Shown one piece after another: positions 22,589-62,585 of a stretch of DNA of 64,000 bases. The stretch comes from Haladaptatus caseinilyticus (GTDB taxonomy: Archaea > Halobacteriota > Halobacteria > Halobacteriales > Haladaptataceae), in contig NZ_CP111042.1 in the NCBI RefSeq assembly GCF_026248685.1, forward strand, positions 124,001-188,000, read 5' to 3'. The first letter of the stretch is position 1, and the number at the start of each line of letters is the position of its first letter. The notes below the pieces were generated by a model. That model had not been told where the DNA came from, ran no database searches, and saw only the letters and a list, made by a program, of their open reading frames with translations. A program made the position numbers and the translations under genes.

Positions 22589-23023
22589 TTACGCCTCTGT
22601 ATCGACTGGCACCCGCTCGAATCCCATTGTCGAAAAATCACTGTCGAAGGCGAATAGATGCTCTATCTCGTGCTCTCGAGCAAGCACCGCACTCGTCTGA
22701 TCGATAAACGAAATTTGCTGGTCGTCGAAACGCTCGAACTCTTCACAAGCTGAATCAAACGTCTGTTTACCTACTGGGAGGATATTGAACGTCTTCGACT
22801 GCCGAACCGTCGAAAGCGCTTCAACAGCTGCTGTGTGTCCAATCTGGTACAGCATGAGTGTCGCAAACTCTGAAAGCACATACCGACTGGTGAACACCGG
22901 TCCATATTCACCCGATTCCATCCCATCGAAGACTGCATTCGCTGCGTCGTGATTCACATCATCCTTATCAAAGGCAGCGTACAATCCACCAGTATCCACG
23001 AACAGCGGCAGTGGACGACTCAT
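22589..23023 (-). CDS. PIN-domain (VapC-like) RNase toxin
   Basis: A 144-residue PIN domain with acidic residues in the expected places: Asp10 in LFVDTGGLYAAF, Glu52 in VLSEFATLML, Asp108 in SFIDQTSAVLA, and Asp127/Asp129 in FAFDSDFSTMGF. PIN proteins cleave RNA with Mg2+. Its ATG overlaps the stop of the upstream winged-helix gene by four bases (ATGA at 23020-23023), a strong sign of a toxin-antitoxin pair or of a co-regulated ribonuclease. Confidence 0.87.
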   Translation of the reverse strand: MSRPLPLFVDTGGLYAAFDKDDVNHDAANAVFDGMESGEYGPVFTSRYVLSEFATLMLYQIGHTAAVEALSTVRQSKTFNILPVGKQTFDSACEEFERFDDQQISFIDQTSAVLAREHEIEHLFAFDSDFSTMGFERVPVDTEA

Positions 23024-23373
23024 TCTGAACCCTTCCCATAGAGGATATCATCCACGTGCTCAGACGCATCAGTGGGCTCTCCAGAGCTGTAGGTCGTCCG
23101 TGAAAAGACTGGGTCACTCGGATCAACCTCATTCACCGAATCCTCATCGACTAGCCACCACACGACTCTTCCAGCAGTCTGGCGACTCTTCACTCGACCC
23201 TGATCCTCGAGTTGCCCAAGCTTCCGCCGGGCTGTCTCTCGTGAACACTCAAGGGCATCGGCAACATCACCGGAGGTCACCACTGGTCCCTCCACTTCCT
23301 CGAAGATAGCGAGTACGTCGGCGAGCGTCACCGTCTCGACGTACCGCCCAGAATCATTGCGATCTTTGGACAT
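23020..23373 (-). CDS. Winged-helix DNA-binding protein, likely antitoxin/repressor of the PIN gene
   Basis: A 117-residue protein starting MSKDRNDSGRYVETVTLADV. The winged helix covers residues 15-75 (VVTSGDVADALECSRETARR as the helix-turn-helix, then GRVVWWLV as the wing). The C-terminal 40 residues (TTYSSGEPTDASEHVDDILY) are acidic and could bind the PIN partner. The gene overlaps the PIN gene by four bases. Its promoter region and first ten codons are duplicated at 62222-62251, where the rest of the gene is missing. Confidence 0.85.
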   Translation of the reverse strand: MSKDRNDSGRYVETVTLADVLAIFEEVEGPVVTSGDVADALECSRETARRKLGQLEDQGRVKSRQTAGRVVWWLVDEDSVNEVDPSDPVFSRTTYSSGEPTDASEHVDDILYGKGSE

Positions 23374-23547
23374 ACTCTACAGTACACACTACCGAAGTAT
23401 AGTCCTGTTGGTGTATGCCATGTGGTGAATACCAACCTTTATGGCCATATGGCGGGAAGACCGGTGCCCTCGGGCGTGTGTAGAAACGCGCCGGGTGTTG
23501 TAGCACCCGGCACCGGTCTTCCAAATACCACGGCTAGAAGACCATGT
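23342..23547. repeat. Long intergenic direct repeat, copy A
   Basis: This segment, from the tenth codon of the winged-helix gene (minus) to the start codon of the small zinc-finger gene (plus), is repeated at 62222-62410. Shared blocks include ACAGTACACACTACCGAAGT, ATGTGGTGAATAC, GCCCTCGGGCGTGTGTAGAA, GCACCCGGCAC and AGAAGACCATG. The copies differ by substitutions and a 12-base indel near 23440. Both end at an ATG on the plus strand. Confidence 0.85.
23455..23522 (+). ncRNA. Putative three-way-junction structured RNA, copy A
   Basis: A perfect 12-bp outer stem GGAAGACCGGTG (23455-23466) with CACCGGTCTTCC (23511-23522) encloses a weak GCGT/ACGC hairpin (23474-23489) and a strong 7-bp hairpin CCGGGTG-TTGTAG-CACCCGG (23491-23510). 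The copy at 62 kb keeps the strong hairpin with 10 bp and a changed loop (TTACAG). It lies 22 bases before the ATG of a small zinc-finger gene. It could be an RNA element in that gene's leader, a protein-binding DNA palindrome or a small RNA. The strand is a guess. Confidence 0.5.
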
Positions 23548-23693
23548 CAACGAAAACGTCTAGTGAACTTGAAGCTGACGACACGGCACAGAAAACAGAC
23601 GACAAAACGCCCGAGAACTGTGGCTGTGACGGTCTTGATAACTTCCCGTGCTGGGAATGCGTCCGAACCGGTCGCAAGGAACTGCCGAACTAA
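23544..23693 (+). CDS. 49-residue zinc-finger miniprotein (CxC...CxxC)
   Basis: It starts MSTKTSSELEADDTAQKTDD and ends with a compact zinc site: CGCDGLDNFPCWEC (Cys-x-Cys, then seven residues, then Cys-x2-Cys) followed by VRTGRKELPN. The N-terminal 28 residues are acidic and probably unstructured. The tail is the same as that at the C-terminus of haloarchaeal SWIM zinc-finger proteins as I know them. Here it stands alone with its own start. A decayed copy is at 16438-16527. It may be a functional microprotein or a surviving C-terminal exon-like fragment. Confidence 0.65.
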   Translation: MSTKTSSELEADDTAQKTDDKTPENCGCDGLDNFPCWECVRTGRKELPN

Positions 23694-25003: not shown

Positions 25004-25282
25004 AGCAAGGAGCGCAAACTCGCCTCAGACCGTGACACTGTCAAGACGGCACAGAAACGCGCACAGGCCGAACAATTCTCCTTCGACGTGGGTGCCTCCA
25101 GACTCGTCGAAGTGATCAACGAGAGCCACGAGAACCCGGAAGAGCACCAATACACCGTGTCCATCGACAACGTGACTCACGAACTGATGGCCTGCACCTG
25201 TCCGCACCACGTCCACCGGAACGCCTACTGCAAACACATGGCCGCCGTCGAAACCGCAACCGAAGAGGGAACCTACCCGTGA
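25004..25282 (+). pseudogene. SWIM zinc-finger protein lacking start and tail
   Basis: The frame reads SKERKLASDRDTVKTAQKRA, FDVGASRLVEVINESHENP, and the SWIM core CTCPHHVHRNAYCKHMAAVE (C-x-C-x(n)-C-x-H), ending EEGTYP. No ATG, GTG or TTG is in frame before 25088 (GTG), which lies inside the conserved part, so the true start is lost. The CxC...CxxC tail that closes these proteins elsewhere is also absent. SWIM domains bind DNA or protein. A 65-residue product from the GTG is possible. It abuts the convergent nuclease gene with a 2-base gap. Confidence 0.65.
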
Positions 25283-25284
25283 AG

Positions 25285-26727
25285 CTATTCGAGTGACTCA
25301 CATGCGATGCCGTCATTATCGGCATCGAGCCGATGTGGGTCACTCGGATCCTGGTCGAGCACGGCCTGGGCTTGTTCGTGCGTGTCGAAGTGACTGCAAT
25401 CGTAATCGCCATCTGATGGGAGTGGTGGGATATCGACTTCGTCGCCTCCACCAGACGATTCCTCCGTTTTTTCAGGTGTTGTCGTCGGTACCGGGCTTGG
25501 TTCTTCGAAGTCCCACAGCCCAACATCATTCTGCTGGGCGTTTGCTTCAACTGTCGCGAACTTGCTCTGTTTCGAGAATGAACTGTCGTACAGCCGAGCA
25601 TAGCCGTCGGTCAGTAGTCGCTGGTTGAAGTTCTCACCGTCAACATAGATATAGACCAAGAGTCTTCCATAGCTCCCTCGTCGGTCGGCTTCCGGATCGG
25701 TCTCTATCCGGATTGTCTTCCCGTCCAATTCGTCAGTCGCAAACCGACTTGCCTGTTCGCCCCATTCGTAGAGATGGTCGCGTCCAGCCGTCGAATCTGG
25801 GATCCCCTCAAACTCATCGGGATTGACTCGACTTAACGTCGTTTCTGGTGTATCAACTCCTAAAAGGCGGAGTGTGTCGGTTTCACCGTTCGGGAACTCG
25901 ACTTCCATCGTGTCCCCATCGATGACTCGGGTGACAGTGACTGTCCATTCTGTTCCGCTCCCTGGCCCACGTGCTGCTTGAGTCGTCGGCGTAGGGATTG
26001 GCGTTAGTGTCTGAGTGGTTATTGTTGGGATGTTCGTTGTCTTTCTCGTTGTGGATGGTGTTGTGGTTGCAATTGTGGTCGGCTGTTCTGTTGTAGCCTG
26101 TACTGTGGTCGCTGACTGAGTCGCCGTAGTTTGGACTGTAGTAGTGGTCGTTTGAGTCGTTGTCACTGATGCCGTTGCCCGTGTAGTACTTGTAGGTGTT
26201 TGGGTCGTCGATGCTTGCGTAGTAATCTTTGGCGCTTCATATGGAACTGATACAGACCAAGTCTGTATTTTGTCGTCAAAGAGCGTATCGCGGTCAGTGA
26301 GCGTTACAGATACGTTGAGTTTGCCTGATTTAAACGACCCCAGTACAGTCGAATTTAGCGGAATTACTGTCGTTGTCGATGGACCCCGTTTGACATCGTC
26401 AGTCTGGAGTACTTCCTCACCGCTGATCTGAACAACGTAGTATGGCTCACCGTGGTCACCGGTATCAGCACCCTCGAGAGTGGTGTTTGATTGGATTTGT
26501 AGATCAAATGCTGTATAACGTCCATCGCCATCGGAATCTTTCTTGTTGATAACCGTAACCTTCCCGATGGAGGGTGTCTCTGTTGTTTCTGATGATTTCG
26601 AGTTAGCTATTTCTTCCGAAGATGAGGTCGTTGTTGTCGTCGTCTTTGATTCAGTATTAGCACTGCATCCTGCGATAACGAGCATTAGCGCAAGTGCTAC
26701 AGAAATGAGCACTTTCGAATTGTTCAC
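25285..26727 (-). CDS. Secreted lipoprotein with thermonuclease (SNase) and Excalibur domains
   Basis: A 480-residue protein. It has a signal peptide with lipobox ([10 protein letters not shown], Cys at about 21). An N-terminal domain (about 50-165) is of unknown type, with calcium-site-like [11 protein letters not shown] Thr-rich linker (about 170-255) probably carries O-glycans. The staphylococcal-nuclease fold follows (about 262-415: [39 protein letters not shown]), and an Excalibur calcium-binding motif closes the protein ([13 protein letters not shown]). The SNase catalytic Arg/Glu positions appear kept. It is likely an anchored extracellular nuclease for DNA scavenging. Domain order SNase-Excalibur is known in bacteria. 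Confidence 0.87.
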
Positions 26728-62221: not shown

Positions 62222-62410
62222 TACCGCCCAGAATCGCTGTGGTCTTTGGACATACGCCACAGTACACACTACCGAAGTATAGTCCTGTTAGTGCATACCA
62301 TGTGGTGAATACAATATGGTGGGAAGAATGATGCCCTCGGGCGTGTGTAGAAACGTGCCGGGTGTTACAGCACCCGGCACTGGTCTTCCAGATGCACCAG
62401 AAGACCATGA
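62222..62410. repeat. Long intergenic repeat, copy B, with structured hairpin
   Basis: This copy corresponds to 23342-23547. It includes the first ten codons of the winged-helix gene on the minus strand (MSKDHSDSGR), cut off right after, then the promoter region, then a perfect 10-bp hairpin GTGCCGGGTG-TTACAG-CACCCGGCAC at 62355-62380, and AGAAGACCATG. The outer stem keeps GGAAGA/TCTTCC, with mismatches beyond. After its ATG the plus strand gives MNTKQSAARGADVTGDC and no zinc finger. Confidence 0.82.
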
Positions 62411-62585
62411 ATACAAAACAATCCGCAGCCCGTGGCGCTGACGTGACGGGTGACTGTATGAGTGATCGAGAAGTCCTCCCCCGGCATTGGCTACATAAAT
62501 ATTATAAAAGGAATCATTAGTAAAAGCGGTTACTTGGCTAACTGCAAGAGGTAAAGTTATATGTCCCAGGTTTGACCTCCCTGGT

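Follow-up and report, generated by a model that had tools for sequence, protein, structure and literature searches.

Results

A duplicated intergenic element ahead of decayed genes

The window, by which we mean the whole 64,000-nucleotide stretch of Haladaptatus caseinilyticus DNA that was analyzed, carries an intergenic block in two copies, A (23342 to 23547) and B (62222 to 62409). A first-pass annotation had described this block as present twice and lying between divergent starts. The repeat is genuine (81% identity over query positions 1 to 205; E 3e-52) and its location is as described; two is the correct count within the window, but the host genome has seven copies. Copy A is flanked on one side by genes for a divergent winged-helix regulator-like protein and a PIN-domain protein (Table 1). 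The ORF on its other side, first read as a zinc-finger miniprotein, is a relic of a SWIM-domain gene that has suffered an in-frame deletion, as seen by alignment to an intact copy. A second decayed SWIM gene copy, leaderless and with one TGA, is found at 25019 to 25378 (+). A tblastn search of the host genome with the SWIM protein gave 49 matches, many of them fragmentary or stop-containing. SWIM genes form a large decaying family in this genome, and the leader is present at only seven copies.

The core of copy A folds at −59.6 kcal/mol, compared with −37.6 ± 3.6 for shuffled sequences (z −6.1), and its outer stem of 14 perfect base pairs encloses two hairpins. Copy B folds at −42.0 kcal/mol, compared with −28.9 when shuffled (z −4.1), and its minimum-energy fold is unlike that of copy A. 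The lengthened 10-bp hairpin that had been assigned to copy B belongs to an alternative fold; family-wide support goes to the three-way junction described below. In both copies, the conserved part of the leader terminates precisely at the ATG. Copy A has a TATA-like TTTATG (23438 to 23443) at a distance of only some 14 nt from the leader instead of 27, and by eye copy B has no TATA-like box in the usual place. Because their ORFs are deleted or truncated and their TATA-like boxes abnormal (A) or missing (B), the two copies in the window have probably decayed and represent relics of an otherwise active family.

Table 1. Positions of the features at copies A and B in the window
Feature	Position	Strand	Basis
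PIN-domain (VapC-like) gene	22589..23023	-	PF01850, E 1.3e-13
Divergent winged-helix regulator-like gene	23020..23373	-	HTH matches, best PF25213 (E 1.1e-6), under gathering cutoff
Upstream block common to A and B: divergent HTH gene start and promoter DNA	23342..23453	.	Sequence
Copy A leader including start codon	23454..23546	+	R1 covariance model, 97.4 bits, E 1.6e-24; fold z −6.1
Copy A strand 1, 5′ side of outer stem, GGAAGACCGGTGCC	23455..23468	+	Fold; helix covariation among relatives
Copy A hairpin 1, GGCGTGT/ACGCGCC	23473..23492	+	Fold; covariation
Copy A hairpin 2, GGGTGT/GCACCC, variable tetraloop	23493..23508	+	Fold; covariation
Copy A strand 2, 3′ side of outer stem	23509..23522	+	GGTCTTC (23515-23521) common to both folds
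Copy A strand 3, GAAGACC immediately 5′ of ATG, complements strand 2	23537..23543	+	Covariation with strand 2 in class I relatives
49-aa ORF, relic of SWIM-family gene with in-frame internal deletion	23544..23693	+	Aligned to intact copy; matches family residues 103-133
Copy B leader including ATG, outer stem partly eroded	62321..62409	+	R1 covariance model, 82.1 bits; fold
Copy B strand 2, GGTCTTCC	62382..62389	+	Alignment
Copy B strand 3, GAAGACC, pairs with strand 2 in predicted fold of B	62400..62406	+	Fold
Truncated ORF behind copy B, family likeness in first few codons only	62407..62520	+	ORF list; SWIM gene body unaligned

The leader family spans an order of haloarchaea

Both window copies belong to a family of structured 5′ leaders of about 90 nt. 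Haladaptatus has at least 48 leader copies in nine genomes. Among 392 genomes of the order, a covariance model built from 39 Haladaptatus leaders (R1) had matches in 157. A further model (R2), for which 88 matches from other genera were used, had matches in 225 of these genomes, representing 71 of 95 genera, and the counts per genome rose to at least 11 to 14. All 27 positive genomes in a phylum-wide sample fell inside the same order. Named plasmid carriers are Halobacterium salinarum, Halalkalicoccus, Haloprofundus, Natrinema, Halopiger, Halostagnicola, Natribaculum, and Halomontanus. The search for further copies that the first-pass annotation had proposed was thus strongly positive: the family spans the order and is no two-copy curiosity.

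The annotation had also known of no described family with this layout, and an Rfam match is indeed absent. Against Rfam 15, the window region gave two chance-level matches, neither above the gathering cutoff, and nine loci with relatives gave none; a search of open-licence papers turned up no account of the element. An origin in haloarchaeal viruses was rejected, as a class I leader (see below) was unmatched in phage records and viral contigs gave no match. The sole match of the SWIM protein to phage records was a weak one, to Bacillus phage SP-15.

Two leader classes mostly precede genes for small zinc-type proteins

The genes downstream of the leader mostly encode small zinc-type proteins, SWIM proteins in class I and zinc ribbons in class II; some, such as that at locus L194, lack a zinc motif. 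In class I, the leader and a short third strand are followed by the ATG of a SWIM gene or another small gene. The Haladaptatus leader usually enters an ORF of about 130 codons that starts MSTK...LEADETAQKRAQ and carries a SWIM zinc finger (PF04434). A SWIM start lies downstream of 37/48 Haladaptatus and 15/40 other class I copies, and a divergent winged-helix/HTH gene lies upstream of 26/48 and 25/40, respectively. Inverted repeats upstream of class I leaders are longer than shuffled ones (mean arm, 5.7 and 5.6 versus 4.3 to 4.4). The first 15 or so codons of class I genes (MSTNE...Q[ED]RT-like) are common to genes whose proteins are otherwise unrelated. It is as if promoter, leader, and N terminus moved as one cassette.

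SprT-like genes are also downstream of 10/48 Haladaptatus copies, and in Halalkalicoccus sp. FCH27 (L264, 3031 to 5102) PIN and HTH genes stand next to a divergent leader-SWIM-SprT-like arrangement. Plasmid loci combining SWIM and TFIIB genes are without this leader. At four plasmid SWIM genes (L261, L262, L263, and L266), a different hairpin leader of the GTGCCCC..GGGGCAC type is situated just 5′ of the start codon, and the first three of these genes adjoin TFIIB-like genes.

Class II, whose named plasmid carriers are Natrialbaceae, consists mostly of one family (f8). Here the promoter AGTAGATATAAGT is followed by the same junction, an extra linker hairpin, and a second hairpin past the ATG, the stem of which covaries (CGGGAT..ATCCCG and CGAGAC..GTCTCG). 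This last hairpin is conserved and has an ATAAAC loop. It lies about 20 nt past the ATG and is contained in a very short ORF (M..LPGYKRPAR) preceding the zinc-ribbon gene. A zinc-ribbon ORF lies no more than 900 nt away in 33/42 class II copies, and as many as 5 more have a zinc-type ORF of a second kind. The very short ORF that begins at the ATG may couple to the zinc gene.

Covariation supports a three-way junction

The fold of the family is a three-way junction. Among the 88 matches from other genera, 96.1% of cells are paired, and 21 of 23 pairs show double changes, in 287 cells altogether. None of 500 shuffles attained any of these measures, and sliding one strand by 1 to 3 columns reduced pairing to 35 to 51%. 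Class I alone gave a similar picture: 97.3% of cells are paired, 20 of 23 pairs are double changed, and there are 192 double-changed cells versus 51 ± 8 after shuffling (0/500), with 40 to 46% pairing in the slid versions. GC, CG, AU, and UA are exchanged at one and the same position. The alignments used (A3 and A5) had been made to fit the structure and are biased in its favor; with an effect this large and base changes of these kinds, an alignment artifact is nevertheless an unlikely source of the covariation. The Haladaptatus-only alignment varies little, with double changes at four pairs, and the real support comes from other genera. The covariation test that had been suggested on the basis of two copies was therefore strongly positive (20/23 class I pairs change on both sides; 0/500 shuffles), and the earlier suggestion that the shape is selected is borne out.

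A third strand can compete for the outer stem

The main feature of the element was missed in the first reading, which listed an RNA leader among its options but did not notice the competing pairing of a strand just before the AUG. Strand 3, the final 7 nt before the start codon, is complementary to strand 2, which forms the 3′ half of the outer stem, and the two change together. Strands 2 and 3 read, in turn, GGCTGTTTC and GAAACAGC at L198, GGTTGTC and GACAACC at L254, GGTCCT and AGGACC at L206, GGGTT and AACCC at L210, and GGGTTC and GAACCC in Halobacterium (L268). A strand 2 pairs with its own strand 3 at 6.40 of 7 positions, compared with 5.26 ± 0.18 when partners are swapped (0/5,000; 15 distinct 7-mers), and the duplex energy is −9.43 versus −6.41 ± 0.38 kcal/mol (0/2,000). 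An alignment made from sequence only pointed in the same direction (40 double-changed cells versus 18.6 ± 5.4; 0/500). Support for a switch comes from class I copies outside Haladaptatus, the only set in which it could be assessed, since the strands are invariant within Haladaptatus and barely vary in class II, where the result by run length was not significant.

These data suggest that strand 2 can pair with strand 1 or with strand 3, never with both at once. Strand 3 was paired in 32 of 38 predicted folds when strand 1 was blocked and in 8 when strand 1 was free. The junction is predicted to be favored by about 9 kcal/mol over the fold with strand 1 blocked, so switching would need help.

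Promoter and start region

A TATA-like 6-mer occurs 20 to 40 nt upstream in 31/46, 26/40, and 37/42 copies of three sets (median, 27 to 28). Almost every copy that has one carries it 25 to 29 nt 5′ of strand 1. With a TATA-like box about 27 nt upstream, the RNA should begin with strand 1, and the outer stem is probably where the transcript starts. A Shine-Dalgarno-like motif is present between strands 2 and 3 in 19/40 non-Haladaptatus class I copies (5 ± 2 expected); Haladaptatus copies have none. As for the large operator considered in the first-pass annotation, operator-like DNA is present upstream of the structured part but outside it.

Discussion

A candidate switch at the start codon

The element is best read as the 5′ leader of an mRNA, a cis-acting switch that would move between two states and so control translation start; we give this reading a probability of about 0.68. 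Of the options first listed, the RNA leader is thus probably the right one. Transcription would begin at strand 1. As long as strand 1 holds strand 2 in the junction, the start region would be open; were strand 1 bound, trimmed, or displaced, strand 2 would pair with strand 3, and the resulting hairpin would close against the start codon and lower translation. In many class I copies, the Shine-Dalgarno-like sequence would then sit in the hairpin loop. The divergent winged-helix protein of class I probably adds transcriptional control at the inverted repeats flanking the TATA box. The signal might be an ion, a metabolite, or a protein, and since the downstream products differ, a single common signal is more likely than self-regulation by each product. 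We propose more tentatively, as an idea with the odds somewhat against it, a natural riboswitch-like regulon specific to haloarchaea, in which one fold, present in some genomes in more than ten copies, would respond to a common signal (e.g., metal or ionic state) and, by exchanging strands at the start codon, set the translation of many small zinc proteins.

Self-regulation is nevertheless the strongest competitor. The encoded small zinc protein would bind the junction of its own mRNA and repress it. SWIM and zinc-ribbon proteins frequently bind nucleic acid, and the products are mostly of these two types. However, the same fold precedes SWIM proteins, zinc-ribbon proteins, and proteins with no zinc motif, which makes this explanation unlikely. 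Less probable still is a small RNA acting in trans, in which a released or early-terminated leader would use its strand 2 to pair with strand 3 of other copies. Such an RNA would suit the abundance of copies within single genomes, the compatibility of their strands 2 and 3, and the relic ORFs behind some copies, but the start codon is kept at a fixed position after strand 3 in almost all copies, the best match between strands 2 and 3 is within the same copy, and by eye no U-run follows the junction. That the element works as DNA, as a mobile-element end or a protein-bound cruciform, is very improbable: although the family is scattered over several replicons and copying between A and B, in one direction or the other, took in a longer stretch with the promoter, the junction pairs covary strongly, the TATA is at a fixed distance, the start codon follows directly, the position relative to genes is constant, and common element ends are not visible by eye around the copies.

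As a cis-acting leader, the family would have consequences beyond this window. With strong covariation, presence in 71/95 genera, and often many copies per genome, it would revise the prior picture, in which structured leaders are untypical of haloarchaea (PMC4983044). It offers a candidate switch that can be tested directly in relatives amenable to genetics, and it links many small, unstudied zinc proteins in a possible single regulon.

Comparison with known systems

VapBC loci resemble copy A and the Halalkalicoccus locus L264 in having a PIN gene after a divergent HTH gene. A shared toxin-antitoxin module was rejected, and PIN excluded from the element, because few copies have a PIN gene nearby (9/48 in Haladaptatus and 2/40 among the other class I copies). 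A ribosomal S15 leader has been described for Halobacteria (PMC7247131), and ribosomal-protein leaders share with our element a structured haloarchaeal leader before a gene for a small, possibly nucleic acid-binding protein; their products repress their own mRNA, as the autogenous alternative proposes. The genes after the present leader differ in that they do not encode ribosomal proteins and are of several unrelated types (SWIM, zinc ribbon, or unknown). The synthetic theophylline riboswitch of Haloferax volcanii likewise controls haloarchaeal translation from a structured 5′ leader, and the paper on it gives the fluoride riboswitch of Thermococcus as the sole natural archaeal riboswitch determined by experiment (PMC8241225). 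There is also a likeness to translational riboswitches that work by a switching strand. They and the present element have in common a 5′ position, a conserved and covarying junction, and an alternative pairing that reaches the start codon; mutual exclusion of the two pairings is indicated by sequence evidence in class I, and not in Haladaptatus or class II. The likeness is one of structure; neither by sequence nor by covariance did the leader match an Rfam family. We rate the leader as a new class within a known kind, the cis-regulatory leader RNAs.
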